Source of the DNA: Ignavibacteria bacterium
GTDB taxonomy: Bacteria; Bacteroidota; Ignavibacteria; Ignavibacteriales; Melioribacteraceae
DNA length: 64,000 nt
NCBI GenBank assembly: GCA_016873835.1
Contig: VGVY01000002.1
Location: 1-64,000, forward strand
Direction: 5' to 3'
The position numbers and the translations under genes are program-made. Below, in pieces: positions 10,117 to 55,525 of this stretch (position 1 is the first letter of the stretch; the number at the start of each line of letters is the position of its first letter). A model generated the notes under the pieces. That model was not told the origin of the DNA. It made no database searches and saw nothing but the letters and a program-made list of their open reading frames with translations.

Positions 10117-10173
10117 TTTATTACTAAACAAATTTCTAAATAAAAATAAAAAGAAAATTGATAAAGAACATAA

Positions 10174-10209: not shown

Positions 10210-10212
10210 GAT

Positions 10213-11547
10213 TTATTTTGTGAAGGTTTCGATAGTGACCATTTTACTTTGATCTTCGCTGCTGTTTATAGTAGAAAGATTTCCAATGTAGGACTTAACA
10301 CTTCCTTTATTGATAACACGTACTCTATAGCTTGCCGGGTTCCCGGTGTAAAGATTAACTTTTAGATTATATGAACCGGTTGGCATAGTTTTAAGGCTGT
10401 AAATGTTTTCAACAGCATTTCCAACTGTACGCTGCCAATCTCTATCTAATTCAACTGAATTATCTGAAGATTTTGGTGAAGACCAATATACATGCATATT
10501 ATTTGGTCCATATAAATGAAGATCAACATCAGATGCATTTGTTGAAGTATTAACCCATGTTAATGTAGCCTGAAAATCTCCAGTTCCATAAGTTACTGTT
10601 GGAACCGCCCATCCTTGCGGAGTTCCTTGAACCCAAGTACCACCACCCGGCATACTTAGTGTAGTCCACCCAGAACCAGAAGATAAAGGACCTGAATATG
10701 TAACCGGCTGAGAAATTGTTCCACTTGCTGGAACGGTGTATGTTTCAATTTTAGGTAGCGTGGAAAGAGTTCCTGGAGTAGTTCTTGAAATCCAAACTTG
10801 GTAAGTTGCTTGAACCAAATGAATACGAGTTGGCGGTCTTGGTCCGCCGGTTGGTTGAGAACCGGTTGAACCAGTCGATCCGACAATTCTTCCGCTGTAC
10901 CATGATGCTGATTGCCAAGCATATTTAAAATTTGTAACTGAAGCTACAGTTAATGTGTAATAATATGTGGCGTCACCGGCAAACTCAAATCCGCCATCTG
11001 AATCTTCAGCAGTTATTTTTGGTGCAGATTGACCAACTTTCGCGACAACATAATAACCGAGCTCCATAACATCAGCGCCGATAACTTTTTTGTCTTTATC
11101 AACCATAGAAATTGGAACAACTTTCCAAGAACTTGACAATGCATCATAGAATAAAAGTTTTAGTTCTGAAGGGTCTGTTGTGTTACGATATGGAAATGTA
11201 ATTCTAACCGGCCATCTGAATGTAAATCCTTCTGGGCCAAGTTTAGTATAATCGCCTCTTTTTTCTGCAGTTGATGAAATTTCTTTCGGCGGTGTAACCG
11301 GAACTTCAATTGAAAAAGTAACATTCGCAGACTGGCCATTTTGGTTTTGAGGAACGGTTCCAGGAATAACAGTAATCTCGTAACCAGAATTTGTTTTAAC
11401 TGTGCCGCCTTGTAGAGATCCTATTGTACCAACAACATTTTCTTCTGTGGGTTCTTTGGGTTCTGTGCCTTCCTCTTTTTTACATGATGATGAATTGATT
11501 AGAAATGCAATTGAGAGGGGGAGTAAAATCGATAATAGTTTTTTCAT
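10213..11547 (-). CDS. Surface or periplasmic lipoprotein with C-terminal DUF2135-like domain
   Basis: A 444-residue lipoprotein: signal peptide MKKLLSILLPLSIAFLI, then NSSSC with the lipidated Cys at residue 22 and an acidic linker. Residues 40-170 are beta-rich (GGTVKTNSGYEITVIPG, FRWPVRITFPY) and recall ZU5-like modules. The C-terminal part contains SDVDLHLYGPNNMHVYW, a signature of DUF2135-like, probably metal-binding beta-sandwiches. The middle is Gly/Ser/Thr-rich. Function unknown; an adhesin or cell-surface role is plausible. A terminator follows. Confidence 0.75.
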   Translation of the reverse strand: MKKLLSILLPLSIAFLINSSSCKKEEGTEPKEPTEENVVGTIGSLQGGTVKTNSGYEITVIPGTVPQNQNGQSANVTFSIEVPVTPPKEISSTAEKRGDYTKLGPEGFTFRWPVRITFPYRNTTDPSELKLLFYDALSSSWKVVPISMVDKDKKVIGADVMELGYYVVAKVGQSAPKITAEDSDGGFEFAGDATYYYTLTVASVTNFKYAWQSASWYSGRIVGSTGSTGSQPTGGPRPPTRIHLVQATYQVWISRTTPGTLSTLPKIETYTVPASGTISQPVTYSGPLSSGSGWTTLSMPGGGTWVQGTPQGWAVPTVTYGTGDFQATLTWVNTSTNASDVDLHLYGPNNMHVYWSSPKSSDNSVELDRDWQRTVGNAVENIYSLKTMPTGSYNLKVNLYTGNPASYRVRVINKGSVKSYIGNLSTINSSEDQSKMVTIETFTK

Positions 11548-11682
11548 AATTCCTCCGATTTGTAAAACAGATTTTGAGATAAATCTATATAAAAAATGTT
11601 TCCCAAATGCATAGTTAGTTGCAATGAAAATTACAAAAATTATTGATTTATCAAAAGAAATATTTTATGAAGCAGAGAATAG

Positions 11683-39847: not shown

Positions 39848-40810
39848 ATGAATACTACTAACTTAACATTGATTTCTAAAAACCAGCAGATGAGAGAAAT
39901 TCTCAATCAAATCAGCAAGGTTGTTGATTCGGATAGTTCAGTGTTGCTGATTGGAGAAACTGGAGTTGGGAAAGAAATTTTTGCTGAATACATTCATAAA
40001 ATTAGCAACCGCTCATTAAATGCTTTCGTAAAAATTGGATTAGCCGCAATGCCATCAGAATTACTTGCAAGCGAATTGTTTGGTCATGAAAAAGGATCAT
40101 TTACAAGTGCTGCCGGTGAAAAGAAAGGTTTGTTTGAAATTGCAAACGGCGGAAGTATTTTTCTAGATGATATTGACGATGTTCCGTTTGAAATTCAAAC
40201 AAAACTGCTGCGTGTTTTGGAATCTAAAGAAATTATGAGAATTGGCGGAACTAATCCAATTCCGGTTGATGTTCGATTGATCACTGCTTCAAAAGTTGAC
40301 CTTAAAGAATTAGTTAGTCGTGGAATTTTTAGAGCTGATTTGTTTTACAGAATTAATGTTGTTCCTTTTCAAATTCCTTCGTTGCGAGAAAGACGAGATG
40401 ATATTCCTCCATTAATTGAACATTTTTTGAAAATGTTTCAGCCTAATAAAAAAATTGAAATTACAAACGAAGCAATGAAAGCCTTTGTCAATTACCCATG
40501 GCCCGGGAATGTTAGAGAACTAAAAAATGTAATTAACCGGATTTCTCTTTTCGTAAGTGGAAAAATAAATTTTGACGATTTGCCATTTGAAGTGCAAAAT
40601 GAAAATCCTATTGAATTTCTTTTAAAAGCTTGTAACAAATGCTATGTTGATGGCAATATGAAATTTGATCAAATAGTAAAATGTTTAGAACACAATTTGC
40701 TCAAAGAAGCATTAAAAGTATCAAGCGGAAATCAATCCAATGCCGCAAAAAATCTTGGACTAAGCCTTTCAACTTTCAGAGATAAATTAAAAAAATATAA
40801 TATAGTATAG
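39848..40810 (+). CDS. Sigma-54-dependent activator 1, without sensory domain
   Basis: A 320-residue bacterial enhancer-binding protein made only of an AAA+ core and a Fis-type HTH. Walker A GETGVGKE, sigma-54 contact loop KGSFTSA (canonical GAFTGA), Walker B FLDDID (canonical LDE), sensor II region NYPWPGNVRELKNV, and HTH SNAAKNLGLSLSTFRDKL. There is no receiver, GAF or PAS domain. The linker has ACNKCY and a further Cys, spaced identically in the paralogue at 45352. It follows hypE by 44 bp and directly precedes its presumed target promoter, so it is the likely activator of the uptake-hydrogenase operon. Confidence 0.9.
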   Translation: MNTTNLTLISKNQQMREILNQISKVVDSDSSVLLIGETGVGKEIFAEYIHKISNRSLNAFVKIGLAAMPSELLASELFGHEKGSFTSAAGEKKGLFEIANGGSIFLDDIDDVPFEIQTKLLRVLESKEIMRIGGTNPIPVDVRLITASKVDLKELVSRGIFRADLFYRINVVPFQIPSLRERRDDIPPLIEHFLKMFQPNKKIEITNEAMKAFVNYPWPGNVRELKNVINRISLFVSGKINFDDLPFEVQNENPIEFLLKACNKCYVDGNMKFDQIVKCLEHNLLKEALKVSSGNQSNAAKNLGLSLSTFRDKLKKYNIV

Positions 40811-40820
40811 CCTCTTCATT

Positions 40821-40856
40821 TACGGATTTCCACAAATCTTTCTACGGAATTCCGTA
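40821..40856. promoter_or_regulatory. Tandem activator-binding sites, first hydrogenase operon
   Basis: TACGGAATTCCGTA at 40843-40856 is a perfect 14-bp palindrome. The related TACGGATTTCCA is at 40821-40832, centred 22 bp upstream, two helical turns. The same half-site (ACGG-N4-CCGT type) occurs twice, 21 bp apart, after the paralogous activator gene. Likely enhancer sites for the adjacent sigma-54 activator. Confidence 0.6.
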
Positions 40857-40905
40857 ATCAAGTCTTTTTATAAACACAAAACCGACCCAAAATCAATCAT
40901 TATCA

Positions 40906-40921
40906 CGGCACATCTTTTGGA
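40906..40921 (+). promoter_or_regulatory. Putative sigma-54 (-24/-12) promoter, uptake hydrogenase
   Basis: CGGCACATCTTTTGGA aligns with TGGCAC-N5-TTGCA: the -24 GG is at 40907-40908, then ten bases, then GG at 40919-40920 where GC is expected. The single -12 mismatch lowers confidence. A start of transcription near 40932 is predicted. Confidence 0.5.
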
Positions 40922-40932
40922 TGCTTGTTTTT

Positions 40933-41142
40933 ATGGAGACAATCCCTCAAAAAATTACAATGGTAGGAAAAATTGTTGGTGTTTATGTGAAAGATGGGAA
41001 AAAGTATGTGAAAATTTTGTGTGAATCTGGCTGCCATGATATTGAAGTACATCAAACCGAAAATTTTCATCTGGAGGCAAAAGTAACACTCGAATTAATT
41101 TCGAAATTAACTTTAAACGTGCAAGAATTTAACAATAATTAA
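40933..41142 (+). CDS. Small protein at the head of the uptake-hydrogenase operon
   Basis: About 69 residues (four more if translation began at 40921, but that lies upstream of the predicted transcription start). Core sequence [20 protein letters not shown], then [11 protein letters not shown] with two Cys, then a strand-rich C-terminus. An OB-like barrel of HypC size is plausible, but it lacks the HypC N-terminal Cys. No Shine-Dalgarno is seen; the ATG at 40960 is another candidate start. It lies 16 bp before the hydrogenase small subunit. Function unknown; an assembly factor is a guess. Confidence 0.55.
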
Positions 41143-41158
41143 TAACTTGGAGGAACTA

Positions 41159-42280
41159 ATGGAGCAAAAACCTCTAACCATTTATGAAAATATGGAGCTT
41201 AACGGATATTCAAGAAGAGACTTCCTTAAGTTCTGCAGTTGGCTTGCAGCTTATATTGGAATTGAATCAAGCGGAGTTGGCAAAATTGTAAAAGCAATGG
41301 AAACAAAACCGCGACTTCCAGTGGTGTGGTTTCATTTTCAAGAATGCACTTGTTGCAGTGAGTCATTTATTCGTTCGTCACACCCAATTGTATCAGATAT
41401 TGTATTAGATAAAATTTCACTTGATTATACAGAAACACTTCAAGCTGCAGCCGGTCATCAAGCCGAAGAAGTTCTTCACAATACAATGAAAAAATATAAA
41501 GGTGAATATTTAATGTTGGTTGAAGGGTCTGTTCCAACTGAAGATGACGGAATTTATTGCTGCATCGGAGGAAGAACTGCTCTTGATATTGTACAAGAAG
41601 CTGCTGCCGGTGCTAAAGCAGTTGTTGCGTGGGGTAGTTGCGCCTCTAATGGATGTATTCAAGCCGCAAAACCAAATCCCACTGGTGCAACTCCAATAAA
41701 AAATATTATTAGCGGCGTACCAATTATTAATGTTCCTGGTTGCCCTCCAATTGGAGAAGTGATGGCTGGTACAATTGTTCATCTTCTAGCTTTTGATAGA
41801 ATTCCACAATTAGATGGATTAGGCAGACCAAAAGCTTTTTATTCAAGAAGAGTTCATGATACTTGCTACAGACGACCAAATTATGATGCTGGATTATTTG
41901 TTGAATCTTTTGATGATGAAAATGCAAAACGCGGATATTGTCTCTACAAAGTAGGCTGCAGAGGTCCAGTTACTTATAATGCTTGCGGTGTTATGCGTTG
42001 GAATGACGGAGTAAGTTACCCTATTCAGTCTGGTCACGGATGCATTGGATGTAGTGAAGCAAATTTCTGGGATAATGGGCCGTTCTATCAACACCTTTCT
42101 TCCTTCCCGGGTTTTGGAATTGAAACAACTGCTGATGATATTGGCGTTATAGTTGGTGCTGCAACGGTAGCTGGAATGGCAGCTCATGCAATTTCTACTA
42201 ATATAAGAAAGCGGTCCCAAATTAGAGAAGGAATAAAAGAATCTATTGAAGAAGTAAATAATGATAAAGGAGGTGAATGA
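41159..42280 (+). CDS. hyaA: [NiFe] uptake hydrogenase small subunit (group 1)
   Basis: A 373-residue electron-transferring subunit with three Fe-S clusters. A Tat signal lies at the N-terminus (SRRDFLKF, residues 18-25), so the heterodimer is exported folded. Cluster ligands: [14 protein letters not shown] (proximal), [33 protein letters not shown], the medial/distal CYRR and CGVM/CIGC groups. A C-terminal hydrophobic segment ([18 protein letters not shown]) can anchor it. TTGGAGG at 41147-41153 fixes the ATG at 41159. The stop overlaps the large subunit start by one base. Confidence 0.95.
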
Positions 42281-43998
42281 TGGCTAATAGAATAGTTATA
42301 GATCCTATTACAAGGATTGAAGGTCACCTTCGCATTGAAGTTCAAGTTCAAAATGGAAAAGTCGTTGATGCTTATAGCAGCGGAACTATGGTAAGAGGTT
42401 TTGAATTAATTCTTAAAGGACGTGACCCACGCGATGCCTGGGCATTTACTGAACGAGCGTGTGGTGTTTGTACAACTGTACATGCACTTGCATCAGTTAG
42501 AACAGTTGAGGATGCATTAGGAATTGTAATTCCTCCGAATGCAGAGCTTGTACGAAATCTAATGTTCTGCGCACAATATATGCAAGATCATGTTGTTCAC
42601 TTTTATCATCTTCATGCATTGGATTGGGTTGATATTGTTAGTGCATTAAAAGCAAACCCGAATGAAACATCAAGAATTGCGCAAAGTATTTCTAATTACC
42701 CAAAAAGCTCGCCAAAATATTTTTCAGATCTTCAAAAAAAATTAACTGCATTTGTAAATAGTGGACAGCTCGGAATTTTTGCTAACGGATATTGGGGACA
42801 TTCAGCATACAAACTTCCACCCGAAGTTAATTTAATTGGAGTCGCTCATTATTTAGAAGCTCTTGAATGGCAGAAAGAGATTGTAAAAATTCATACAATT
42901 TTTGGCGGAAAAAATCCGCATCCAAATTATTTAGTTGGCGGCGCTCCATGTTCTGTAAATATTGATGATGCAAATGCTATTAACGCTGAAAGATTAGCTT
43001 ATGTGGGAACTTTGCTTAAAGAAGCAAAAACATTTATTGAACAAGTCTATATTCCTGATCTTCTTGCAGTTGCACCATATTATCTTGATTGGGGTGGAAT
43101 TGGCGGTGGTTTAGAAAATTATTTAGTCTATGGAGATCTTCCAACAAATGGCTATGGAGATGTTGGGAAGTTTAAATTTCCACGTGGTGCTATTTTAGGA
43201 AGAGATTTATCCAAAGTTCACGAAGTTGATGGAAAAGATATTAAGCAAATTCAAGAATATATTTCTCACTCTTGGTATGAGTACTCTGATGGTAACGAAA
43301 CTGGAAAACATCCGTGGGATGGCGAAACAAAATTTAATTACACCGGACCAAAACCACCGTATGATTTCTTAAATGTAAAAGAAAAATACAGCTGGTTAAA
43401 AACACCAAGATGGAATGGTAAAGCAATGGAAGTTGGTCCGCTTGCAAGGGTTTTAGTTGCCTATGCATCTGGCAGTAAAGAAGTTCAAGAACTTGTAAAT
43501 GGAACTCTTAAAGCTCTTAAAGTTCCGGTTGGTGCTCTTTTCTCAACTCTTGGCAGAACTGCAGCACGCGGATTGGAGACAATTTTAATTTCTCAATGGG
43601 CTATGGAATTTTACGATCAATTGATAAGCCATATAAAAAATGGTGACTCAAGAATGTTTGATAATTCAAAATGGGATCCTTCAACTTGGCCAAAAGAAGC
43701 AAAAGGAGTTGGAATGACTGAAGCACCTCGTGGTGCTCTTGCACATTGGATTGTTATTAAAGATGAAAAGATTGATAATTATCAATTAGTTGTTCCTTCA
43801 ACATGGAATGCATCACCAAGAGATCCTTCTGGCGGAATGTCTGCATATGAATCTTCACTTATTGGAACTCCAATTGCAGATCCGGAAAAACCATTAGAAG
43901 TTTTACGAACAATTCACTCTTTCGATCCGTGTATTGCATGTGCAGTTCATCTTTATGATGAGAAAGGAACTTATGTTCATCAAGTGCAAACATTTTAG
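42280..43998 (+). CDS. hyaB: [NiFe] uptake hydrogenase large subunit (group 1)
   Basis: A 572-residue catalytic subunit. Nickel ligands are in ERACGVCTTVHALAS (N-terminal CxxC) and FDPCIACAVH (C-terminal CxxC). The maturation protease cuts after that His, removing the last 15 residues (LYDEKGTYVHQVQTF). AGGAGGT upstream favours the second of two adjacent ATGs (42280). Membrane-facing partner cytochrome b follows after 11 bp. Oxidises H2 on the outer face of the membrane. Confidence 0.97.
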   Translation: MANRIVIDPITRIEGHLRIEVQVQNGKVVDAYSSGTMVRGFELILKGRDPRDAWAFTERACGVCTTVHALASVRTVEDALGIVIPPNAELVRNLMFCAQYMQDHVVHFYHLHALDWVDIVSALKANPNETSRIAQSISNYPKSSPKYFSDLQKKLTAFVNSGQLGIFANGYWGHSAYKLPPEVNLIGVAHYLEALEWQKEIVKIHTIFGGKNPHPNYLVGGAPCSVNIDDANAINAERLAYVGTLLKEAKTFIEQVYIPDLLAVAPYYLDWGGIGGGLENYLVYGDLPTNGYGDVGKFKFPRGAILGRDLSKVHEVDGKDIKQIQEYISHSWYEYSDGNETGKHPWDGETKFNYTGPKPPYDFLNVKEKYSWLKTPRWNGKAMEVGPLARVLVAYASGSKEVQELVNGTLKALKVPVGALFSTLGRTAARGLETILISQWAMEFYDQLISHIKNGDSRMFDNSKWDPSTWPKEAKGVGMTEAPRGALAHWIVIKDEKIDNYQLVVPSTWNASPRDPSGGMSAYESSLIGTPIADPEKPLEVLRTIHSFDPCIACAVHLYDEKGTYVHQVQTF

Positions 43999-44009
43999 GA
44001 GGGGCAGTT

Positions 44010-44675
44010 ATGAATTCTTCAAAAAAAATATATGTGTGGGAACTGCCCGTTAGGTTTTACCATTGGCTGAATGCACTTTGCATCGTTGCTTTAGCTTCAA
44101 CGGGATATTTAATCGGCAGTCCGCCGGCAGTCCAAAGCGGTTCAGAAGCATCCTTTGGTTATTGGTTTGGAATTGTGAGATTCATACACTTTGTTGCTGC
44201 ATTTGTTTTCTTTTTTAATTTCTTGTTTAGAATTTATTGGGGATTTGTTGGGAATAAATTTGCGCGGTGGGATCAATTCATTCCTTACAAACCGCATCAT
44301 TGGAAAGAAATCCTTCATGTACTCTGTCTGGATATTTTACAAATCTGTAAAAAACCATTGAAATCAATTGGGCATAATTCGTTGGCTGGATTAACATACT
44401 TTATCACGTTTCTTGTTTTTTTATTTCAATCAATAACTGGTTTTGGAATGTATGCAGCAATGAGCGACTCATTTTTACCGAATCTTTTCGCATGGATTGT
44501 TCCTTTGATGGGCGGAGATTTTGCAGTGAGGCAATGGCATCATGTAATGATGTGGTTTTTTGTAATCTTTTCATTGGTTCATGTTTATTTAGTTTTTTAT
44601 CATGATTATATTGAAGAGAGAGGAACAATTTCATCAATGGCTGGCGGCTGGAAGTTTATTGAAAAAAATAAGTAA
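44010..44675 (+). CDS. hyaC: Ni/Fe-hydrogenase b-type cytochrome
   Basis: A 221-residue inner-membrane cytochrome b with four main helices. It begins KKIYVWELPVRFYHWLNALCIVAL, typical of HyaC/HupC; heme His candidates are in RFYHWLNA, RFIHFVAAF, RQWHHVMMW and SLVHVYLVFYHDY. It takes electrons from the hydrogenase to the quinone pool. A terminator lies 18 bp after it. Confidence 0.95.
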   Translation: MNSSKKIYVWELPVRFYHWLNALCIVALASTGYLIGSPPAVQSGSEASFGYWFGIVRFIHFVAAFVFFFNFLFRIYWGFVGNKFARWDQFIPYKPHHWKEILHVLCLDILQICKKPLKSIGHNSLAGLTYFITFLVFLFQSITGFGMYAAMSDSFLPNLFAWIVPLMGGDFAVRQWHHVMMWFFVIFSLVHVYLVFYHDYIEERGTISSMAGGWKFIEKNK

Positions 44676-44692
44676 TAATATTTTGATCTAAC

Positions 44693-44721
44693 AAAGGCGG
44701 GCTATAATGTCCGCCTTTTTT
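44693..44721 (+). terminator. Rho-independent terminator after the uptake hydrogenase genes
   Basis: AAAGGCGG and CCGCCTTT form an 8-bp stem with a 10-nt loop, followed by a T-run. It separates hyaC from the maturation protease gene that follows, so the protease is expressed by partial read-through or from its own promoter. Confidence 0.88.
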
Positions 44722-44761
44722 ATTTATTTCAATTGTATATTAAAGAAACAAATAAATTATT

Positions 44762-45220
44762 ATGAAGAACATCTTAATTCTTGGTGTTGGAAATATATTA
44801 ATGGGCGATGAAGGCATTGGAATCCACTCTATAAAAGAATTGGAGAAAAATTCCTTTCCCGAGAATGTTACTTTACTTGATGGCGGAACTGGCGGTTTTC
44901 ATCTGCTTAACTATTTACAAGAATATAAAATAATTATTATGATTGATGCTTCTATGGATAACAAACCTGAAGGTACTGTTTCTGTTATTGAACCAAAATT
45001 TGCAAGCGATTTTCCAAAATCTTTAAGTGCTCATGATATTGGACTGCGAGACCTTATTGAATCCGTATCTCTCTTAGGGGAGCTGCCCAAAATATTTTTG
45101 ATAACAATCTCAATAAATCATATACAAAACATGTCAATGGAGTTATCGCAAAAAATAAAGGCATCCCTCTCAGAAATCGCTCAAAAAGTTGAATCTATTT
45201 TACATTCATTAAATCAATAG
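44762..45220 (+). CDS. hyaD: Hydrogenase maturation protease, first copy
   Basis: A 152-residue endopeptidase that removes the C-terminal tail of a hydrogenase large subunit. Family motif GVGNILMGDEGIGIHSI with the nickel-sensing Glu; MIDAS with the Asp; and LSAHDIG with the His. By position it serves the uptake hydrogenase. A second, divergent copy lies at 46468. Confidence 0.93.
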   Translation: MKNILILGVGNILMGDEGIGIHSIKELEKNSFPENVTLLDGGTGGFHLLNYLQEYKIIIMIDASMDNKPEGTVSVIEPKFASDFPKSLSAHDIGLRDLIESVSLLGELPKIFLITISINHIQNMSMELSQKIKASLSEIAQKVESILHSLNQ

Positions 45221-45351: not shown

Positions 45352-46314
45352 ATGAATTCCTCAAATAATTATATCGTAACACAAAACAGAGTTGTTCTTG
45401 ATTTGCTCTCGCAAATTGAAAAAACCTCAAACTCTGATTGCTCAGTTCTTTTAATTGGAGAAACTGGCGTTGGCAAAGAATTATTTGCCGAATTCATCCA
45501 CAGAACTAGTAACAGAAATAATTTCCCTTTAGTTAAAGTTGCGCTCTCAACACTTCCGGCTGATTTAATTGAAAGTGAATTATTCGGGCATGAAAAAGGG
45601 GCATTCACTGGTTCTATGAATGAAAAGAAAGGACTCTTTGAAGCATCGGACAAAGGAACAATTTTTTTAGATGATATTGATGATTTTCCATTAAACCTCC
45701 AATCCAAATTGTTACGGGTTCTTGAATCAAAAGAAATAAAAAGAATTGGTTCGCAAAATTCTATTCCGTTAGATATTCGGTTGATCACAGCTTCAAAGCT
45801 TGATTTGCAACAGCTTGTTGCTCAGGAAAAATTCCGAATCGATCTGTTCTTTAGAATTAATGTCTTGCCAATAGTAATACCTCCACTGAGAGATAGAATT
45901 GATGATATTCCAATATTGGTGGATTACTTTCTGAATTTTTACGAACCAGAAAAAAGAATTGAAGTTTCTGATGCAGTATGGGAATCATTAAAAAATTACC
46001 CCTGGCCAGGGAATGTGCGTGAGTTAAGAAACATCATTCAACGTATTGCACTGTTTGCAAATGGAAAGATTACCATTGACAATTTACCATCAGAAATTAG
46101 AGGCGACTCTCCATTCAAAAATTTTATGAAAACTTGCGGACATTGCTTTGAAAATAAAAATATGAAATTCGAGCAAGTGATGGTATGTGTTGAAAAGCAT
46201 CTATTAGAACATGCATTGACTAGTTCTGATGGTAATCGAACAGTAGCCGCGCGCATGCTTGGTTTAAGTTTATCAACTTTTAGGGATAAATTGAGAAGAC
46301 ATAATATAGTGTAA
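45352..46314 (+). CDS. Sigma-54-dependent activator 2, without sensory domain
   Basis: A 320-residue paralogue of the activator at 39848, with the same length and architecture. Walker A GETGVGKE, contact loop KGAFTGS, Walker B FLDDID, NYPWPGNVREL and HTH RTVAARMLGLSLSTFRDKL. The linker again has CxxC (KTCGHCFENKNMKFEQ) and a later Cys (VMVCVEKH). TTGAGGATAA precedes the ATG. It lies between the two hydrogenase systems, just ahead of the sigma-54 promoter of the Hdr-Mvh operon. Confidence 0.9.
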   Translation: MNSSNNYIVTQNRVVLDLLSQIEKTSNSDCSVLLIGETGVGKELFAEFIHRTSNRNNFPLVKVALSTLPADLIESELFGHEKGAFTGSMNEKKGLFEASDKGTIFLDDIDDFPLNLQSKLLRVLESKEIKRIGSQNSIPLDIRLITASKLDLQQLVAQEKFRIDLFFRINVLPIVIPPLRDRIDDIPILVDYFLNFYEPEKRIEVSDAVWESLKNYPWPGNVRELRNIIQRIALFANGKITIDNLPSEIRGDSPFKNFMKTCGHCFENKNMKFEQVMVCVEKHLLEHALTSSDGNRTVAARMLGLSLSTFRDKLRRHNIV

Positions 46315-46423: not shown

Positions 46424-46439
46424 TGGCATTTCTATTGCA
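46424..46439 (+). promoter_or_regulatory. Sigma-54 (-24/-12) promoter of the Hdr-Mvh operon
   Basis: TGGCATTTCTATTGCA matches the -24/-12 consensus TGGCAY-N5-TTGCA: GG at 46425-46426, ten bases, GC at 46437-46438. Predicted transcript start near 46450, 18 bp before the first gene. Confidence 0.8.
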
Positions 46440-46467: not shown

Positions 46468-46980
46468 ATGCAAACTCTTATTCTTGGAATGGGAAACAAA
46501 CTTTTCGGTGACGATGGTGTAGGCATCGTAGTAGCTGAACGACTTCAAGAAATTCTTGTCGAAAATGACCAAATAAAAATTGAATCAACTAATTGGGGCG
46601 GATTTAGAATAATAGATCTGCTCACTGGATACAATTATGCAATTGTAATTGATTCAATTAATACCGGTATGAAACCTATTGGTTTTATTCATAAATGGGA
46701 CTATACAGATTTAATCAATTCTGTGAGAATGATTTCATTTCATGATGTCAATTTTGCAACTGCTGTTTCCCTTGCGAAAAAACTTAACATTTCGATGCCT
46801 GAAAAGATAATTGTTTATGGAATTGAGATTAATCTTACAAATCATTTCTCAGAAGGTTTATCAGAGATTATCAAACAATCAGCAACTCAATGTGTTGAGC
46901 TAGTCTTGAATGATCTGAATTTTCATGCTGATGAAAGCAGACTTTTATCAATTGAAAAATTTGAAGAGGAAATAAAATGA
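46468..46980 (+). CDS. Hydrogenase maturation protease, second copy
   Basis: A 170-residue peptidase of the HyaD/HycI family, first gene of the sigma-54 operon. Motifs: GMGNKLFGDDGVGIVVAERL (Asp replaces the first-site Glu, GDDG rather than GDEG), VIDSINTG and SFHDVNF. It should mature the group 3 large subunit at the far end of the operon. Overlaps the ferritin-like gene by 4 bp (ATGA). Confidence 0.9.
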   Translation: MQTLILGMGNKLFGDDGVGIVVAERLQEILVENDQIKIESTNWGGFRIIDLLTGYNYAIVIDSINTGMKPIGFIHKWDYTDLINSVRMISFHDVNFATAVSLAKKLNISMPEKIIVYGIEINLTNHFSEGLSEIIKQSATQCVELVLNDLNFHADESRLLSIEKFEEEIK

Positions 46981-47486
46981 TAGCAGAAGATTTAACTGCA
47001 TTAGAAGCACTTGGAATTGCTATTAGAAGCGAGATGGATGCTCAAGATGTTTATAAAGATTTAGCTGAACTTTGTGAAAACGAAGAATTGAAAGGACGCT
47101 TTTTGAACATGTATCAAGAAGAAAGACGCCATCAAGTTCTTCTTGAAAATATGTATAGAGAGATGTTTCCTAATGTCGATATTAAACTTCCTCCAAGTCA
47201 GCTTCCAAAGGAAGTGAATAATAAATCGGCAAGAAAAAAACTTGGAATCAAAGATGTGTTGAAACATGCAATTGATGAAGAAAAAAAAGCACGTGAATTT
47301 TATCTCGATTGTGTAAGCTCTGTAAAAGATTTATCTGGTCAAAGAATGTTTAGATTTCTTGCTGACATGGAATTTTCACATCAAATGATTCTAAATGCAG
47401 AATTAGAGATGATTGAAAAATATCCGCTCTATTTTGAAAATCCTAAGGGCTGGGAAGTTGAATCCCGATTAAGAGCTGGAAGATAA
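46977..47486 (+). CDS. Ferritin-like diiron protein (rubrerythrin family)
   Basis: A 169-residue four-helix protein. Two ExxH-type helices supply diiron ligands: AIRSEMDAQDVYKDL with QEERRHQVLL, and AIDEEKKAREFY with MEFSHQMIL. No rubredoxin domain is attached. Rubrerythrin-type proteins reduce peroxide or handle iron. Placement inside a hydrogenase operon suggests oxygen or peroxide protection of Fe-S and [NiFe] enzymes. Overlaps the protease gene. Confidence 0.85.
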   Translation: MIAEDLTALEALGIAIRSEMDAQDVYKDLAELCENEELKGRFLNMYQEERRHQVLLENMYREMFPNVDIKLPPSQLPKEVNNKSARKKLGIKDVLKHAIDEEKKAREFYLDCVSSVKDLSGQRMFRFLADMEFSHQMILNAELEMIEKYPLYFENPKGWEVESRLRAGR

Positions 47487-47530: not shown

Positions 47531-48187
47531 ATGAAAATACAAGAAATTAATATTCCTGGGAAACTTACTAGAAAGGAATCTGTACTGCGCCATTCATTTT
47601 TAGAACAAGTTGATACTATCCCTGGAGGCGAAAAAATAAAATCATGTATTCAATGCGGAACTTGTTCGGGATCGTGTCCGCTTTCTTATGCAATGGATGT
47701 AATGCCGCGAGAATTAATTGCACTTTTTAGAGCCGGTGATATTGAATCAATTTTAAGAAGCAGAACTATTTGGATTTGTGCTTCTTGTTATACTTGCCAA
47801 ACACGCTGTCCGTCGTCAATTAAAGTTACAGATATAATTTATGCACTTAAAAGAATTGCAATGGAAAGGCGAATCTATGCGAAAAAATTCCCAGTTCATT
47901 CACTTTCAGATTCATTCATAAAGAGTATCTACCGTTTTGGAAGATTAAACGAACCAAGATTAATGATTCTTTATTTCATGAGAACTGGAATTTTAAAAGC
48001 ATTTTCTTTTATTCCGCTTGGATTAAAAATGATGAGGAAAGGAAGACTTGAACTCAGAGTTTCAAAAGTGAAGGGAATAGATGGTTTAAGAAAAATAATG
48101 AAGAAAGCAGAAAAACTTGATATTCCATTTGAAAAAGAAAAATTACCATTTATGCCGGAAGCAGTTGGGTATAAATCTGTTAGTTAA
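47531..48187 (+). CDS. hdrC: Heterodisulfide reductase subunit C-like iron-sulfur protein
   Basis: A 218-residue protein with two [4Fe-4S] motifs: CIQCGTCSGSCPLSYAMD and CASCYTCQTRCPSSIKV. It bridges HdrA and HdrB electron flow. The C-terminal 100 residues are basic with no membrane segment, so the complex is cytoplasmic. It is followed by hdrB at 18 bp. Confidence 0.92.
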   Translation: MKIQEINIPGKLTRKESVLRHSFLEQVDTIPGGEKIKSCIQCGTCSGSCPLSYAMDVMPRELIALFRAGDIESILRSRTIWICASCYTCQTRCPSSIKVTDIIYALKRIAMERRIYAKKFPVHSLSDSFIKSIYRFGRLNEPRLMILYFMRTGILKAFSFIPLGLKMMRKGRLELRVSKVKGIDGLRKIMKKAEKLDIPFEKEKLPFMPEAVGYKSVS

Positions 48188-48205: not shown

Positions 48206-49111
48206 ATGAATTATAATTATTATCCCGGATGCAGTCTTCAATCTGCTCATAAAGGGTATGACAAATCTTGCAGAGCAGTGTTCAATTCTCTTGGATGTGA
48301 TCTGATTGAGATTGAAGATTGGAATTGCTGCGGTGCTACAATTTATATGTCCATAAATGAAGTTACAGCATTAGCTGTTGCTTCAAGGAATTTAGCACTT
48401 GCAGAAAAAACCAAAAGAGATTTAGTAACACCGTGCAGTTCTTGTTTTACAATTCTTAATAAAGCCAATCGATTTATTCAAAATAGTATTGAAGTCCGTG
48501 ATAAAGTTAATTCTTGTCTTGCAGAAGGCGGACTAAATTATAATGGCACTGTTAGAGTACGTCATCCCCTGGATGTTTTGATAAATGATGTTGGCATTGA
48601 AATAATAAGGCTCCAAATAAAGATACCATTGGAAGAATTAAAAATTGCTAATTATTACGGATGCCAAATTGTGAGACCAGAAAAAGGTTTTGACGATAGA
48701 GAGGATCCAACAACTATGGAAAATCTTTTTGAAGCTGCTGGTGCAAGTAATGTTTATTTCCCTTATAAGTTACGATGCTGTGGCGGAATGTTGATGACAA
48801 CTTTTGAAGAGGCTGCTTTAAAACTTTCAAAAGAAATTCTTGAATGTGCAATTGAGAATGGAGCGGATTGCATTGTTACAACATGTCCGTTGTGCCAAAT
48901 GAATCTCGAAGCATACCAAAATGAAATTCATAATAAATATAAAACTAAAGTTGGAATTCCAATTCTGTTCTTTACACAAGTTCTTGGTGCAGCGCTTGGG
49001 TTGAGTAATGAAGAACTTGGCATCGATTCAAACTTTTATCGTTGTAAAAAATTAGTCGAAATAAAAAATAAAAAATCTTATACAGCACAAACAGTTCATT
49101 CAGTTATTTAA
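48206..49111 (+). CDS. hdrB: Heterodisulfide reductase subunit B-like CCG-domain protein
   Basis: A 301-residue protein with two CCG cysteine-rich domains. First: YYPGCSLQSAHKGY, WNCCGATIYMS, CSSC. Second: YYGCQIVRP, LRCCGGMLMTT, TCPLC. In methanogens these bind the non-cubane clusters that reduce the heterodisulfide. The organism is not expected to use CoM-S-S-CoB, so another disulfide or acceptor is likely; this is inference. Confidence 0.92.
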   Translation: MNYNYYPGCSLQSAHKGYDKSCRAVFNSLGCDLIEIEDWNCCGATIYMSINEVTALAVASRNLALAEKTKRDLVTPCSSCFTILNKANRFIQNSIEVRDKVNSCLAEGGLNYNGTVRVRHPLDVLINDVGIEIIRLQIKIPLEELKIANYYGCQIVRPEKGFDDREDPTTMENLFEAAGASNVYFPYKLRCCGGMLMTTFEEAALKLSKEILECAIENGADCIVTTCPLCQMNLEAYQNEIHNKYKTKVGIPILFFTQVLGAALGLSNEELGIDSNFYRCKKLVEIKNKKSYTAQTVHSVI

Positions 49112-49137: not shown

Positions 49138-52100
49138 ATGACAAACAATGTAAAAATAGGTGTTTATATCTGTCATTGTGGTGTTAACATTTCTCAAACT
49201 GTACGAGTTGATGAAGTTGCCAATTTGCTAAGCGGAAAACAAAATGTTAAGGTTTCTAAATCTTACAAGTTTATGTGTTCAGATCCAGGTCAGCAGATTG
49301 TTGAAACCGATATTAAAGAACATGGATTGAATAGAGTAGTTGTTGCTGCATGTTCTCCTTTAATGCATGAGCTAACATTCCGCAATGCATGCGAACGAGC
49401 CGGATTAAATCGCTATCTTTTTCAAATGGCAAATATTAGAGAGCATTGTGCTTGGGTGCATGACGATATTGATAAAGCAACAATAAAAGCGACAGCACTT
49501 GTTAATGCTGCGGTTAAAAGAGTAACACATCAAGAACCGCTCACCCCGATGAAATCTAAAATTAATCCAAATACACTTATTATCGGTGCTGGAATTGCTG
49601 GAATTCAAGCAGCTCTAGAAATTGCTGAATCTGGAAACAAAGTTTATCTCGTTGAAAAAGAATCAACAATTGGCGGACAGATGGCAAAGTTTGATAAAAC
49701 TTTTCCAACACTCGATTGCTCTGCATGTATTTTAACTCCCAAAATGGTTTCTGTTAGTCACCGCAAACAAATTGAGTTATTAACATTATCCGATGTTGAA
49801 GATGTAAGCGGTTATATTGGAAATTTTAAAGTAAAAGTCCGTAATAAAGCAAGGTATGTTACAGATAAATGCACTTCATGCGGAGAATGCACAAAACATT
49901 GTCCGGTTCATGTTCCAAATTGGTTTGATGAATTCACCCAGAATCGAACTGCAATTCATAAAGCGTTTCCCCAAGCTGTTCCTAATACATATATAATAGA
50001 TAGACAACAAAGACCGCCATGTATTGAAGCTTGCCCTATAAGGCAAGAAGCGGCCGGATATGTTGCATTAATTCGGGAAAAAAGATTTCACGAAGCAGCT
50101 CAGCTTATTCATAAAAGAAATCCTCTTGCAGTTGTTTGCGGAAGGGTTTGTTACCATCCTTGCGAAAGTGAATGTAATCGAGGTCATGTTGATAAACCAT
50201 TAGCAATTCAGCAATTGAAAAGATTTGCAATCGATTGGGAAATGAATAATAATGGAAAGTTTGAATCCCCCGTAATTGATAAGCATCGTCCGGAAAAAGT
50301 TGCTGTTATTGGTTCTGGTCCATCTGGATTAACATGCGCACATGATTTATCTCTCAAAGGTTTTAAAGTAACAGTATATGAACAGCATTCAATTCCAGGT
50401 GGTATGCTTGCAATTGGAATTCCAGAATACAGATTACCAAAAAAACTTCTTGCAATGGAAATCAATTATTTCCGAGGAATGGGAATTCAATTTAAAACAA
50501 ACATGAAACTTGGAAGCGATTTTACTATTGATGATTTATATAAAGAAGGATTTAAAGTTGTTTACATTGCTATTGGTGCTCATGATAGTATAAAACTTGA
50601 AATTCCTAATGAACATGTAATAGGAATTTATTCTGGCGTTGAGTTTTTACGAAAAGTCAATATTGGTATTCTCATGGATCTAGGAAAACATGTCGCAGTA
50701 ATTGGCGGCGGGAACACAGCAATTGATGCAGCAAGAACCGCACTTAGACTTGGTGCTAAAAAAGTCACAATTCTTTATAGAAGAACAAAATTAGAAATGC
50801 CAGCTTCTCCGGAAGAGATTGAAGATGCAGAAGCTGAAGGAATTCATATTTCCTATTTAACTGCACCTACCGAAGTAATAAGTGAAAATGAAAGCTTGAG
50901 AGGTCTTAAATGTATTCGTATGACACTTGGTGAACCAGATTCTTCTGGAAGAAGACGTCCGATTCCAATTCCAAATAGTGAACATGAATTAGAATTTGAT
51001 TCTGTAATTGTTGCAGTTAGCCAGTCGCCTAATCTTATTGGTTTGAATGGAAAATCAAAACATAAATTCACTATTACTAAATGGAACACTCTGCATGTTA
51101 ATCCAGAAACACTTCAAACAAGCGAACCATCAATATTTGCTGGTGGTGATGTTGTTCTAGGACCATCAACCATAATCGCATCAATGGGTCAAGGAAGGCG
51201 GGCCGCCGAATCAATTGAAAAATATTTGAACAAAGAACCACTAGATAATTTTACTACTCATATGGTTCGTCCGGAAGTTTTACGCGGTGAATCTTTTAGA
51301 CCTCATAGTTATGCAAAAACTTATAAAGAAACAGAGAAGACTGAACGAGAAGCAGTTGGTAAATTAAATCCTTTAGCAAGAAAATATAATTTCGAAGAAG
51401 TTGAACTTGGTTTTACAGAGGAACAAGCAGTTAAAGAAGCATCGCGCTGTTTGAATTGCGGTGTCTGCGTTGAATGCCACGAATGTCAAAGAGTTTGTGA
51501 GCCTGGAGCCGTCAATTACGAAATGGAAGACAAAATAAAAGAGTTTGATGTTGGTCAAATAATAGTTGCTACTGGCTATGATGTTTTCGATGCGTCCAAA
51601 CTTATTCCATATGGTTATGGAAAACTTAAAAATATTTTAAGCTCGCTCGAGTTTGAAAGAATGTTATCATCAACCGGACCAACCGGTGGAAGAGTTCTTC
51701 TTGAAAACGGTAAGGAGCCAAGAGCAGTTGGGATAATTCATTGTGTCGGTTCGCGTGATTCTAATTTTAATAAATATTGTTCGAGAGTATGCTGCATGTA
51801 TGCAATGAAATTCTCTCATTTGGTTAAAGACAGAACAAGTGCAGAAGTTTATCAATTCTATATCGATATGCGTGCATACGGAAAAGGCTATGAAGAATTT
51901 TATTCAAGAATTCTTGCTGAAGGGGTGAACGTAATTAGAGGAAAAGTTGCAGAGATAGTCGAACAAAAAGCAAATGATGGAGATAAATTCTTAGCTATTA
52001 AATGCGAAGACACATTGATCGGCAAGTTTAGAGAAATTCCAGTTGATATGGTAATACTTTGCAATGCACTTCAGCCAAGCAAAACAACAGAAAAAGTTGC

Positions 52101-52539
52101 GAAGATTTTAAGTCTTTCAAGAAGTCCTGATGGATTCCTATTAGAACGTCATCCAAAACTTGATCCGTTCTCAACTGTCAGCGATGGTATTTATCTTGCG
52201 GGATGCGCACAAGGTCCAAAAGATATTCCAGATACTGTTTCTCAAGCAAGTGCTGCTGCTGCACGTGCATTGGCAATAATATCAAAAGGCGAGGTTGATA
52301 TTGATCCTATAAGAGCTGAAATAAATGAAAATTATTGTGCCGGCTGCAGAATGTGTAATAATTTATGTCCGTACAGCGCAATTGAATTTCTTGAGGATAA
52401 AAAAGTTTCAGTTGTTAATGATGCACTTTGCAAAGGATGCGGAACTTGTGTTGCTGCTTGTCCGGCTGGTGCAATAACAGGTAAAGGATTTTCTGATGAA
52501 CAAATCTATGCAGAGCTTGAAGGAATTTTAGAAGTGTAA
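49138..52539 (+). CDS. hdrA: HdrA-type flavoprotein with inserted GltD/NfnB-like NADP-binding module
   Basis: 1133 residues; canonical HdrA is about 650. Order: HdrA N-domain (VYICHCGVNI), FAD Rossmann (IIGAGIAGIQAAL, residue 146), TLDCSACILTPKM, a ferredoxin motif (CTSCGECTKHC, about 244). Then the insert, about 290-740: CIEACPIRQEAAGY, CGRVCYHPCESECNR, FAD GSGPSGLTCAHDL (about 388), NAD(P) GGGNTAIDAAR (about 517) with YRRTKLEMPA, and AGGDVVLGPSTI, all GltD/NfnB-like. HdrA sequence resumes with CLNCGVCVECHEC and CVGSRDSN, and ends in two clusters (CAGCRMCNNLC, CKGCGTCVAAC). The paired Arg after strand B2 suggests NADP(H). Expected to bifurcate hydrogen electrons with MvhADG. Confidence 0.93.
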   Translation: MTNNVKIGVYICHCGVNISQTVRVDEVANLLSGKQNVKVSKSYKFMCSDPGQQIVETDIKEHGLNRVVVAACSPLMHELTFRNACERAGLNRYLFQMANIREHCAWVHDDIDKATIKATALVNAAVKRVTHQEPLTPMKSKINPNTLIIGAGIAGIQAALEIAESGNKVYLVEKESTIGGQMAKFDKTFPTLDCSACILTPKMVSVSHRKQIELLTLSDVEDVSGYIGNFKVKVRNKARYVTDKCTSCGECTKHCPVHVPNWFDEFTQNRTAIHKAFPQAVPNTYIIDRQQRPPCIEACPIRQEAAGYVALIREKRFHEAAQLIHKRNPLAVVCGRVCYHPCESECNRGHVDKPLAIQQLKRFAIDWEMNNNGKFESPVIDKHRPEKVAVIGSGPSGLTCAHDLSLKGFKVTVYEQHSIPGGMLAIGIPEYRLPKKLLAMEINYFRGMGIQFKTNMKLGSDFTIDDLYKEGFKVVYIAIGAHDSIKLEIPNEHVIGIYSGVEFLRKVNIGILMDLGKHVAVIGGGNTAIDAARTALRLGAKKVTILYRRTKLEMPASPEEIEDAEAEGIHISYLTAPTEVISENESLRGLKCIRMTLGEPDSSGRRRPIPIPNSEHELEFDSVIVAVSQSPNLIGLNGKSKHKFTITKWNTLHVNPETLQTSEPSIFAGGDVVLGPSTIIASMGQGRRAAESIEKYLNKEPLDNFTTHMVRPEVLRGESFRPHSYAKTYKETEKTEREAVGKLNPLARKYNFEEVELGFTEEQAVKEASRCLNCGVCVECHECQRVCEPGAVNYEMEDKIKEFDVGQIIVATGYDVFDASKLIPYGYGKLKNILSSLEFERMLSSTGPTGGRVLLENGKEPRAVGIIHCVGSRDSNFNKYCSRVCCMYAMKFSHLVKDRTSAEVYQFYIDMRAYGKGYEEFYSRILAEGVNVIRGKVAEIVEQKANDGDKFLAIKCEDTLIGKFREIPVDMVILCNALQPSKTTEKVAKILSLSRSPDGFLLERHPKLDPFSTVSDGIYLAGCAQGPKDIPDTVSQASAAAARALAIISKGEVDIDPIRAEINENYCAGCRMCNNLCPYSAIEFLEDKKVSVVNDALCKGCGTCVAACPAGAITGKGFSDEQIYAELEGILEV

Positions 52540-52557: not shown

Positions 52558-53013
52558 ATGGAAACCAAACAAACATTAAAAAAAGAGATTAATCTTAAAG
52601 ATGGCGTATTTGAACCAAAGATAGTTGGATTTTTGTGCAATTGGTGTTCATACTCCGGAGCTGATTTAGCTGGTGTTTCAAGGATAAAATCGGCGCCAAA
52701 TGTTAGAATAATTCGGACAATGTGTTCGGGCAGAGTTGATCCATCATTTATAATAAAAGCATTTGAGCTTGGCGCAGATGGTGTTTTGATTGCCGGATGC
52801 CACTTTGGAGATTGTCATTATCTTGAAGGAAATTTTAAAACTATGCGCCGAATAGAAATGATGAAACTTGTACTAAAGCAATTTGGAATTGATGCAAGAA
52901 GATTACGACTTGAATGGATCTCTGCATCTGAAGCAGAAAAATTTTCTAAAGTAACTTTTGAATTTACTGAACAAATAAAAACTCTTGGTCCACTTAGATT
53001 AATAAAGAATTAA
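52558..53013 (+). CDS. mvhD: MvhD-type [2Fe-2S] electron-transfer subunit
   Basis: A 151-residue protein that links the hydrogenase to HdrA. Cys ligands: FLCNWCSYSGADLAG, RTMCSGRVDP, AGCHFGDCHYLEGN. Length and motif order match MvhD/FrhD-like subunits. It lies between hdrA and mvhG, 18 bp after hdrA. Confidence 0.94.
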   Translation: METKQTLKKEINLKDGVFEPKIVGFLCNWCSYSGADLAGVSRIKSAPNVRIIRTMCSGRVDPSFIIKAFELGADGVLIAGCHFGDCHYLEGNFKTMRRIEMMKLVLKQFGIDARRLRLEWISASEAEKFSKVTFEFTEQIKTLGPLRLIKN

Positions 53014-53029: not shown

Positions 53030-54016
53030 ATGGGCAAACCAAAATTAGCACTTTATTGGGCAGCAAGCTGCGGCGGCTGTGAAATTACTGTTGTTGATAT
53101 TGAAGAAAAGATACTTGATGTTGCAGATTTTTTTGACATTGTATTCTGGCCTTGCATTATGGATTTTAAATATGAAGATGTTGAAGCAATGGAAGATGGA
53201 GAAATTGACATTACACTTTTCAATGGTGCAATCCGAACTTCAGAAAATGAACATCTTGCTAAATTGCTTAGAAAAAAATCGAAATTATTAATTGCATTTG
53301 GTTCTTGTGCTCACGATGGCTGTATTCCCGGTCTTGCAAATTTTTATGATAAGCAAAGTATCTTCGATTACGTATATAAAGAGTCTCCTTCGGTTGAGGA
53401 GAGTTCTCAAGGAGTTTTTCCACAGACATCAACTAAAATGCCTGAAGGCGAAATAACTATTCCGGAATTTTGGAATACTGTTAAAACTCTCGATCAAACT
53501 GTTGATGTTGATTATTACATTCCCGGGTGTCCACCGCAATCTTTTCAAGTAGCTGCAGTAATACTCGCAGTTATTGATATTTTGAAAACTGGTAAACCAC
53601 TTCCTGACAAGGGTGCTATACTTGGTGCCGATAATAAAACTTGTTGTGATGAGTGCCCACGTGAAAGAAAAGAAAAAAAGATTAAAGAATTTTTCAGACC
53701 ACATGAAATAATTCCCAAAGAAGATGAATGTCTTCTTGATCAAGGAATACTTTGCATAGGTCCGGCAACCAGAAGCGGTTGCGGTGCGCTTTGTGTTCAG
53801 GCTAATGTTCCGTGCAGAGGTTGTTATGGTGTTCCTCCAAATGTAAAGGATCAAGGTGCAAAAATGATTTCCGCATTAAGTTCTGTTATCGATGCAACTT
53901 CGCCGGAGGAAGTTTCGAGAATAATAAATAAAATTGCTGATCCGCTCGGAACATTTTATAGATTCTCACTTGCAAGTTCAACATTTAAACGAGTTCAGTT
54001 TTCGGATAAGACATAA
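53030..54016 (+). CDS. mvhG: Group 3 [NiFe] hydrogenase small subunit (MvhG-like)
   Basis: A 328-residue small subunit without a Tat signal, so cytoplasmic. Proximal cluster motif WAASCGGCEITVVD, then FGSCAHDGCIPGL and YIPGCPPQSFQV. The C-terminal half binds further clusters (CCDECPRERK, CIGPATRSGCGALC, CRGCYGVP). Matches MvhG and bacterial group 3c proteins. Confidence 0.94.
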   Translation: MGKPKLALYWAASCGGCEITVVDIEEKILDVADFFDIVFWPCIMDFKYEDVEAMEDGEIDITLFNGAIRTSENEHLAKLLRKKSKLLIAFGSCAHDGCIPGLANFYDKQSIFDYVYKESPSVEESSQGVFPQTSTKMPEGEITIPEFWNTVKTLDQTVDVDYYIPGCPPQSFQVAAVILAVIDILKTGKPLPDKGAILGADNKTCCDECPRERKEKKIKEFFRPHEIIPKEDECLLDQGILCIGPATRSGCGALCVQANVPCRGCYGVPPNVKDQGAKMISALSSVIDATSPEEVSRIINKIADPLGTFYRFSLASSTFKRVQFSDKT

Positions 54017-54046: not shown

Positions 54047-55525
54047 ATGAAGCATATAAAAATTGACCCTATTACCCGCTTAGAAGGACACGGCAAGATT
54101 GATATATTTTTAAATGACGAAGGTGATGTTGAAAATTGCTACTTCGTTATACCTGAATTGAGAGGGTTTGAGAAGTTTGCGCAAGGTAGACCAGTTGAGG
54201 AGATGCCAAGAATAACAACAAGAATTTGCGGTGTTTGTCCGGAAGCACATCACATGGCATCTGCAAAAGCTTGCGATGCAGTTTATCATGTTAATATTCC
54301 TTCAGCAGCAAAAAAATTAAGGGAACTCCTTTATACAATTTTTTACACCGCAGATCATACAGTTCATTTTTATGCTTTAGGCGGACCTGATTTTGTTGTT
54401 GGACCTGATGCACCAAAGGCTGAAAGAAATATTCTTGGATTGATCAACAAAGTTGGTTTAGAGGCCGGTAAAAAAGTTATTAAGTTGAGATCGCTTGCAC
54501 AAAATATGATTCAAACTTTGGGAGGAAAAAAAATTCATCAAGTAACTTCACTTCCTGGTGGTGTTTCAAGAGGAATATCGGAAGAAGAGAGAGTTGCCTT
54601 TGCAAAAGATCTTGAGTACTTCGTAGAGTTTGGTAAGTTCACATTCCAAGTATTCAATGATATAGTTTTGAAAAATTCTGGTTACGTAGATTTGATTTTA
54701 TCTGACACGTTTACTCAAAAAACATATTATATGGGGACGGTCGATGAAAATAATAAAACAAATTTTTATGATGGAAAAGTAAGAGTTGTTGATCCCGAGG
54801 GAAATGAGCATTGTAAATATGAGCCAAAAGATTATCTAAATTTTATTTCTGAGCACACAGAAAAATGGAATTATCTAAAATATCCATATCTTAAAAAAAT
54901 TGGCTGGAAAGGATTTGTTGATGGAATTGAGAGCGGAGTTTATCAAGCCACACCGCTGTCAAGAGTAAATGCCTCGGATGGAATGGCAACTCCATTAGCA
55001 CAAGAAGAATATGAAAAATTTTATGAAACATTTACTGGAGATCGTTCCGGTAAAAAGCCAGTTCATCATACACTTGCCACACACTGGGCAAGAGTAATTG
55101 AATTAATGTATGCTGCGGAAAGAGCAAATGAATTAATAAACGATCCCGAAATAACTTCTAAAGATATTCGTACTATACCAACCGAAATTCCAACAGAAGG
55201 AGTTGGAATTGTTGAAGCCCCTCGCGGAACTTTAACTCATCATTATATTACAGACGAAAAAGGAATTGTAAAAAAAGCAAACCTAATAGTTGGAACAACA
55301 AATAATCATGCGCCAATTTCAATGTCTATTAAGAAAGCTGCACAAGGTTTAATAAAAAGGGGGACAGAAGTAACAGATGCAACCCTCAATATGATTGAAA
55401 TGGCATTCCGTGCATACGACCCATGTTTTGGATGTGCAACACATACTTTGCCAGGTCAAATGCCATTACAAATAAAAATTTATAACAAGGAAGGATTACT
55501 ACTTTCCGAGAATTCAAGGTTCTAA
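54047..55525 (+). CDS. mvhA: Group 3 [NiFe] hydrogenase large subunit (MvhA-like)
   Basis: A 492-residue catalytic subunit. It begins IDPITRLEGHGKI. Nickel ligands: TRICGVCPEAHHMAS and DPCFGCATH; cleavage after that His would release a 21-residue tail beginning TLPGQMP. The partner protease is probably the one at 46468. Last gene of the sigma-54 operon, convergent with the 55566 gene. Confidence 0.95.
   Translation: MKHIKIDPITRLEGHGKIDIFLNDEGDVENCYFVIPELRGFEKFAQGRPVEEMPRITTRICGVCPEAHHMASAKACDAVYHVNIPSAAKKLRELLYTIFYTADHTVHFYALGGPDFVVGPDAPKAERNILGLINKVGLEAGKKVIKLRSLAQNMIQTLGGKKIHQVTSLPGGVSRGISEEERVAFAKDLEYFVEFGKFTFQVFNDIVLKNSGYVDLILSDTFTQKTYYMGTVDENNKTNFYDGKVRVVDPEGNEHCKYEPKDYLNFISEHTEKWNYLKYPYLKKIGWKGFVDGIESGVYQATPLSRVNASDGMATPLAQEEYEKFYETFTGDRSGKKPVHHTLATHWARVIELMYAAERANELINDPEITSKDIRTIPTEIPTEGVGIVEAPRGTLTHHYITDEKGIVKKANLIVGTTNNHAPISMSIKKAAQGLIKRGTEVTDATLNMIEMAFRAYDPCFGCATHTLPGQMPLQIKIYNKEGLLLSENSRF

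Follow-up and report, generated by a model that had tools for sequence, protein, structure and literature searches.

A StnC-type module in the ferredoxin domain of a bacterial HdrA: a candidate NADP(H) port in a predicted HdrABC-MvhADG complex

Fusions between the heterodisulfide reductase subunit HdrA and a second flavoprotein have been described in both bacteria and archaea. The HdrL1-3 proteins of Desulfobacterium autotrophicum, which were given the name "heterodisulfide reductase/glutamate synthase fusion" as early as 2009, adjoin mvhD; HdrL1 is tied to dsrABC, and two of the three HdrL are selenoproteins (PMC2702500). The ANME-1 proteins HdrA9-11 carry an NfnB-like insertion of about 500 residues in the ferredoxin domain, and NADPH was proposed as a partner in 2022 (PMC9012536). 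"Type III HdrA" (A9, A9-TRX-C, and A10, from ANME-1 and Bathyarchaeota) was defined in 2025 in a study that presented two new HdrA types without biochemistry; a Bathyarchaeota cluster contains mvhADG, whereas no other functional genes were reported close to the type III genes of ANME-1 (PMC12054007). The methanogen HdrABC-MvhAGD complex (5odc) has no NAD(P) module, and its low-potential branch ends at ferredoxin. Here, we analyse an hdrA gene fused to a GltD-type module in the first 64,000 nucleotides of contig VGVY01000002.1 (assembly GCA_016873835.1) of an Ignavibacteria bacterium from the Melioribacteraceae, a stretch that we call the window (Table 1). The original prediction made from this DNA implied a novel architecture, but the same one occurs in the three studies of HdrL, ANME-1, and type III proteins. 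It is therefore already known, and the window contributes a bacterial case that is complete and that allows the mechanism to be predicted more sharply. Judging by the published descriptions, it differs from type III HdrA in its bacterial host, in the predicted use of NADP rather than NAD, and in the hycI and rubrerythrin-like genes also found in the operon. It differs from HdrL in its full hdrBC-mvhDGA set, and from the ANME-1 proteins in having a module of the StnC type. We lean towards the view that the protein, which has the HdrL/type III architecture, is the flavin-bifurcating core around which HdrBC and MvhADG form a cytosolic complex, and that the StnC-type NADP(H) module placed in its ferredoxin-reducing domain would allow this complex to couple H2, NADP(H), and a disulfide.

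The open reading frame (ORF; 1,133 residues) is intact, and its start and frame are right. Pfam and NCBIfam profiles reveal a Fer4_20 and Pyr_redox_2 module flanked by HdrA matches, which bears out the prediction of an HdrA with an inserted GltD-type module. In the alignment with the solved HdrA 5odc, residues 5–290 correspond to 4–291 and residues 777–1130 to 293–649, and the insert (approximately 291–776) stands in place of about one residue; outside it, the protein aligns fully to 5odc and 8rvu. The insert of about 450 residues announced between HdrA parts is thus present, but it is 486 residues long and lies inside the inserted ferredoxin domain of HdrA, between the CxxCxxCxxxC motifs at 245–255 and 777–787. 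The N- and C-terminal domains of HdrA are present with all their cluster motifs (motif listing and alignment), and the residues E356 and K409 of the HdrA flavin adenine dinucleotide (FAD) site (5odc numbering) are kept as E840 and K891. The insert has predicted FAD and NAD(P) sites of its own, as had been claimed, with the motifs GSGPSG (392) for FAD and GGGNTA (523) for NAD(P), the latter followed by YRR (547–549). The AlphaFold2 model (mean predicted local distance difference test [pLDDT] of 72.7, predicted template modelling score [pTM] of 0.52) has well-folded Rossmann domains and a linker and cluster regions of low confidence, the cluster regions being too uncertain for distances or domain placement. 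Foldseek searches with this model relate the whole chain to HdrA and the insert to NfnABC/StnC/NfnB.

The insert matches the solved structures of StnC/NfnABC and NfnB with E-values between 1e-95 and 1e-124. Its best solved relatives are the large subunits of StnC/NfnABC (9bov, 5e-124; 9n5u, 1e-114; 8oh5, 3e-103), and NfnB (4ylf, 5e-99) comes after them. The position of a ligand of the FAD-proximal cluster separates the two types: it is Lys (K361) in the insert and in all the HdrA-fused, NuoF-fused, and StnC modules that we compared, and Glu in all NfnB-type sequences (E117 in T. maritima, E126 in P. furiosus). The homologous K170 of StnC coordinates the FAD-proximal cluster, and the FAD of StnC is reported to be non-bifurcating (PMC10482914). 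A change of Glu to Cys uncouples the branches of NfnL (PMC9503767). The tree of 36 GltD domains has an Hdr-associated group (support 94/87) whose neighbour is StnC (92/95), with NfnB standing at a distance (100/100). An NfnB-type module is rejected by this placement together with the Lys ligand. The Arg equivalent to R201 is found in both StnC-type and NfnB-type modules and does not discriminate between them. The YRR motif is found in 36 out of 36 GltD relatives; the paired Arg that had been read as fitting NADP(H) is indeed there, but it is a family-wide trait and no special feature of the fused protein.

The insert shares with StnC of the Sporomusa StnABC complex and with the NfnABC large subunit the Lys at the proximal cluster, a C-terminal Cys pair, and YRR. 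In those complexes, the module is a port through which NADPH feeds a bifurcating flavin located elsewhere, and its partners are NuoG-type domains and a NuoF-type module that bifurcates, whereas here it is joined to HdrA. On sequence grounds, we class it as a relative of the StnC lineage that is not itself StnC, being fused to HdrA and devoid of NuoG domains. The Cys pair of the distal cluster is N-terminal in NfnB but C-terminal in the insert (C771, C774), directly ahead of the second HdrA motif, which makes plausible a continuous chain of clusters from the insert into the HdrA ferredoxin domain. Because the module FAD is reported not to bifurcate in StnC, bifurcation probably takes place at the FAD of HdrA alone, and the insert would be an NADP(H) port.

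The operon contains hycI, a rubrerythrin-like gene, hdrC, hdrB, hdrA-GltD, mvhD, mvhG, and mvhA in this order, with intergenic gaps of −4 to 44 bp, in agreement with the earlier claim that HdrBC and MvhADG are encoded together. The motifs of HdrB (both CCG), HdrC, and MvhA (both Ni motifs) are complete, and the subunit set, the cofactor motifs, and the equivalents of E356/K409 are shared with the methanogen complex. The predicted complex would have the parts for H2 oxidation, FAD-based bifurcation, disulfide reduction, and NADP+ reduction. We infer its assembly, its specificity for NADP, the path and direction of the electrons, and the loss of ferredoxin as a substrate. H2 would be oxidised at MvhA. 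MvhG and then MvhD would relay the electrons to the HdrA FAD, the single site of bifurcation, by way of the C-terminal ferredoxin domain of HdrA. One electron would travel through HdrC to the disulfide site of HdrB. The other would cross the interrupted ferredoxin domain from cluster to cluster, enter the insert at its distal cluster, and move on through the proximal one to the module FAD, which would gather two electrons and hand a hydride to NADP+. The likely net reaction is 2 H2 + NADP+ + R-S-S-R -> NADPH + H+ + 2 R-SH, in a reversible manner, where NADP+ reduction at low H2 would be pulled by disulfide reduction and ferredoxin would probably be displaced as a substrate. We assumed potentials of −370 mV for NADP, −500 mV for ferredoxin, and −140 mV for the disulfide. 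With these values, the reaction is computed at −15.7 kJ/mol at 1e-4 atm H2 and −4.2 kJ/mol at 1e-5 atm, against +9.4 and +20.8 kJ/mol, respectively, for the version with ferredoxin. The NADP version is therefore favourable at low H2 and the ferredoxin version is not, which would provide a rationale for swapping one for the other.

Several points weigh against this scenario. The YRR motif supports NADP only through the behaviour of the family, so that the preference for NADP over NAD is a prediction. The retained R201-equivalent Arg leaves bifurcation at the module FAD compatible with the sequence alone, and the cluster regions of the structure model are of low confidence. Our analysis identified no substrate for the bacterial HdrB. 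We found in the literature no biochemical test of HdrL, HdrA-NfnB, or type III HdrA. Finally, the complementarity with Nfn/Stn genes described below rests on two fused genomes.

The alternative that survives best, although we think it rather unlikely, keeps ferredoxin as a substrate, with electrons exchanged among H2, ferredoxin, NADP(H), and the disulfide, for example in a confurcation in which NADPH and reduced ferredoxin together yield H2. All cluster motifs of the ferredoxin domain are kept, the genome encodes ferredoxin enzymes (pyruvate:ferredoxin oxidoreductase [PFOR]-type genes, Rnf), and the production of H2 from NADPH and reduced ferredoxin is favourable at the assumed potentials. 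However, the module sits in the ferredoxin-reducing domain, where a block of access has been proposed (PMC12054007), and a group A6-type [FeFe] hydrogenase is already encoded for ferredoxin-linked H2 chemistry. Because of this position of the module, ferredoxin is less likely to be the equal partner that the original prediction made of it. It is more improbable that the module uses NAD(H) instead of NADP(H), as proposed for the archaeal type III HdrA, where NAD was deduced from a GXGXXG motif (PMC12054007). In the fused protein, GXGXXG (392) is the FAD motif, and no NAD-type GXGXXG is present in the NAD(P) site of the insert, which has GGGNTA and then YRR, a motif linked to NADP(H) in DsrL-2 and NfnB and accompanying strict NADP(H) use in DsrL (PMC7596348). 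A second bifurcating FAD brought by an NfnB-like module, giving two sites in one chain as suggested for the ANME-1 proteins (PMC9012536), is the least probable of all, since the common fold and R201-equivalent Arg are outweighed by the StnC-type ligand and tree position, by the reported non-bifurcating FAD of StnC, and by the lack of an NfnA partner among the genes of the operon (Pfam and NCBIfam).

Fused homologues with about 77–80% identity are encoded in two Calditrichota metagenome-assembled genomes (MAGs; L002 and L003), in a Bacteroidetes MAG (L004, where the gene is truncated at the contig end), and in a genome of the same family (G009). A more distant one (52% identity) is found in a Chloroflexi MAG (L005), and partial ones in L006 and L007. 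The junction sequences agree among the full or nearly full-length relatives (four at ~77–80% and one at 52%), and the same operon is found in Calditrichota and other MAGs. Since these MAGs are independent, an assembly artefact is ruled out. The HdrA of L002 (Calditrichaceae) and L006 ("Deltaproteobacteria") are nearly identical (tree path of ~0.02), which suggests misbinning or recent transfer. Among 396 sampled genomes of the phylum, a single further one (G299) has a fused protein, so the fusion is rare in this phylum; that protein is longer (1,490 residues), HdrL-like, and followed by mvhDGA. In L049 (8956–13425), a 1,490-residue HdrL-like chain combines an HdrA Rossmann part and a GltD module with another HdrA core that is more complete, and precedes mvhD, mvhG, and mvhA.

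The genome of the window has one Hdr set, one other protein with CCG domains, POR-type ferredoxin oxidoreductase genes, Rnf, and complex I. Its hydrogenases are one group A6-type [FeFe] and two [NiFe] enzymes, both of the latter encoded within the window. StnC- or NfnB-like genes were not found in this genome, where a YgfK-type protein is the sole strong GltD match besides the fusion, nor in G009, which also has the fusion. Conversely, the congeners G001 and G002 have both StnC-like and NfnB-like genes and no fusion, and G003 (66% complete) has a StnC-like gene. These few genomes suggest that the fusion takes over NADP coupling in its hosts.

Other genomes encode HdrA in a split form: an N-terminal ORF is followed by NuoE- and NuoF-like genes, and then by an ORF in which a NuoG-type front is joined to the C-terminal part of HdrA. 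We observed it in L008, L009, L018, L022, G216, G224, and G369, with mvhD after it and then, in most cases, mvhG and mvhA. A narrow search of the literature did not find this arrangement, which is possibly undescribed. NuoF is fused to GltD in L009 and G017, and this GltD is 46–47% identical to the insert; L017 has a similar arrangement cut by contig ends. Further split-HdrA operons occur in L046, L047, L048, and L050, the last also with a NuoF-GltD fusion, and the operon of L009 spans 2336–11564. In L047 (3897–5216), genes for an [FeFe] hydrogenase-like sensor-type protein and for histidine-kinase-like ATPases lie between the split halves.

Fused and split forms intermix in the tree of the HdrA core. 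The fused clade of the window (99/99) groups with split forms (99/100), and the Chloroflexi fused form joins other split forms (98/96). A single origin of fused HdrA is rejected by the approximately unbiased (AU) test (p = 5.9e-51), as is a single clade of split forms; we had already inspected the tree when we ran this test, for which two rows that duplicated the window (L057 and L058) were taken out. In the trees, HdrA changes at least twice between the fused form and others. The break points of the two forms lie in the same loop, about 30 residues apart: split HdrA breaks right after the first cluster motif, with QAVP in the C-terminal chain, whereas QAVP precedes the insert in fused HdrA. 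Fusion by simple deletion from a split NuoE-NuoF-GltD operon would fit the gene order, but these differences mean that simple deletion does not interconvert the forms.

In the window, G009, L004, and L002, the operon lies downstream of a gene for a sigma-54 activator, and an element resembling the sigma-54-like one of the window is found upstream of hycI in the last three genomes. Judging by these sequence matches, the activator-type gene is a likely regulator of the hdrA-GltD operon. Four fused operons share the rubrerythrin/ferritin-like gene, flanked by hycI and hdrC, and its product had no match in a search of defence families. Elsewhere in the window (39848–45220), a second sigma-54 activator-like gene stands before the genes of a membrane-linked [NiFe] hydrogenase (a small subunit bearing an RRDFLK signal, a large subunit, a cytochrome b, and a protease), upstream of which no sigma-54 site was seen.

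Table 1. Features of the hdrA-GltD operon and its upstream region in the window.
Feature	Position	Strand	Basis or remark
Sigma-54 activator-type regulator, Sigma54_activat + HTH_8	45352..46314	+	
Putative sigma-54 -24/-12 type promoter TGGCATTTCTATTGCA, upstream of hycI	46424..46439	+	Sole match in window, 0.35 expected by chance
Hydrogenase maturation protease, HycI/HupD type	46468..46980	+	Profile matches
Rubrerythrin/ferritin-like protein, two ExxH motifs	46977..47486	+	Kept within operon
hdrC, two CxxCxxCxxxC motifs	47531..48187	+	
hdrB, both CCG motifs, two non-cubane clusters predicted	48206..49111	+	
hdrA-GltD fusion gene, HdrL / type III HdrA architecture, 1133 aa	49138..52539	+	Profile matches, 5odc alignment
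HdrA N-terminal part, residues 1-290, up to cluster motif 1 (C245-C255) and PQAVP loop	49138..50007	+	5odc 4-291, motif listing
StnC-type GltD module, residues 291-776; predicted two [4Fe-4S] clusters, FAD, NADP(H) site	50008..51465	+	
K361, position of NfnB Glu117 / StnC Lys170, ligand of FAD-proximal cluster	50218..50220	+	
YRR motif, residues 547-549, predicted 2'-phosphate binding of NADP	50776..50784	+	In 36/36 sequences, weakly discriminating
HdrA C-terminal part, residues 777-1133: second cluster motif of inserted ferredoxin domain, FAD domain (E840, K891), C-terminal ferredoxin domain	51466..52536	+	5odc 293-649
mvhD	52558..53013	+	PF02662, E 1.7e-52
mvhG, [NiFe] hydrogenase small subunit	53030..54016	+	Top NCBIfam match VhuG
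mvhA, [NiFe] hydrogenase large subunit, RICGVC + DPCFGC	54047..55525	+	

More tentatively, we propose that a StnC-type NADP port may have replaced ferredoxin at the low-potential exit of HdrA in a complete bacterial complex bifurcating between H2, NADP(H), and a disulfide, and that it may have assumed the role of Nfn/Stn. NAD(P) modules would then dock recurrently on the inserted ferredoxin domain of HdrA, whether in the fused form (GltD) or in the split one (NuoEF, NuoF-GltD), and this arrangement would have been reached at least twice. The set of StnC-type ligands makes the published idea of two bifurcation sites testable, and the presence of the full operon in a bacterium, away from the methanogens and their coenzyme M–coenzyme B heterodisulfide (CoM-S-S-CoB), makes the substrate of HdrB an obvious target. 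If the proposal is true, one soluble complex would yield NADPH from H2 at partial pressures that bar the reduction of ferredoxin, with disulfide reduction paying for it, and the same HdrA scaffold would accept different low-potential partners through domain insertion.
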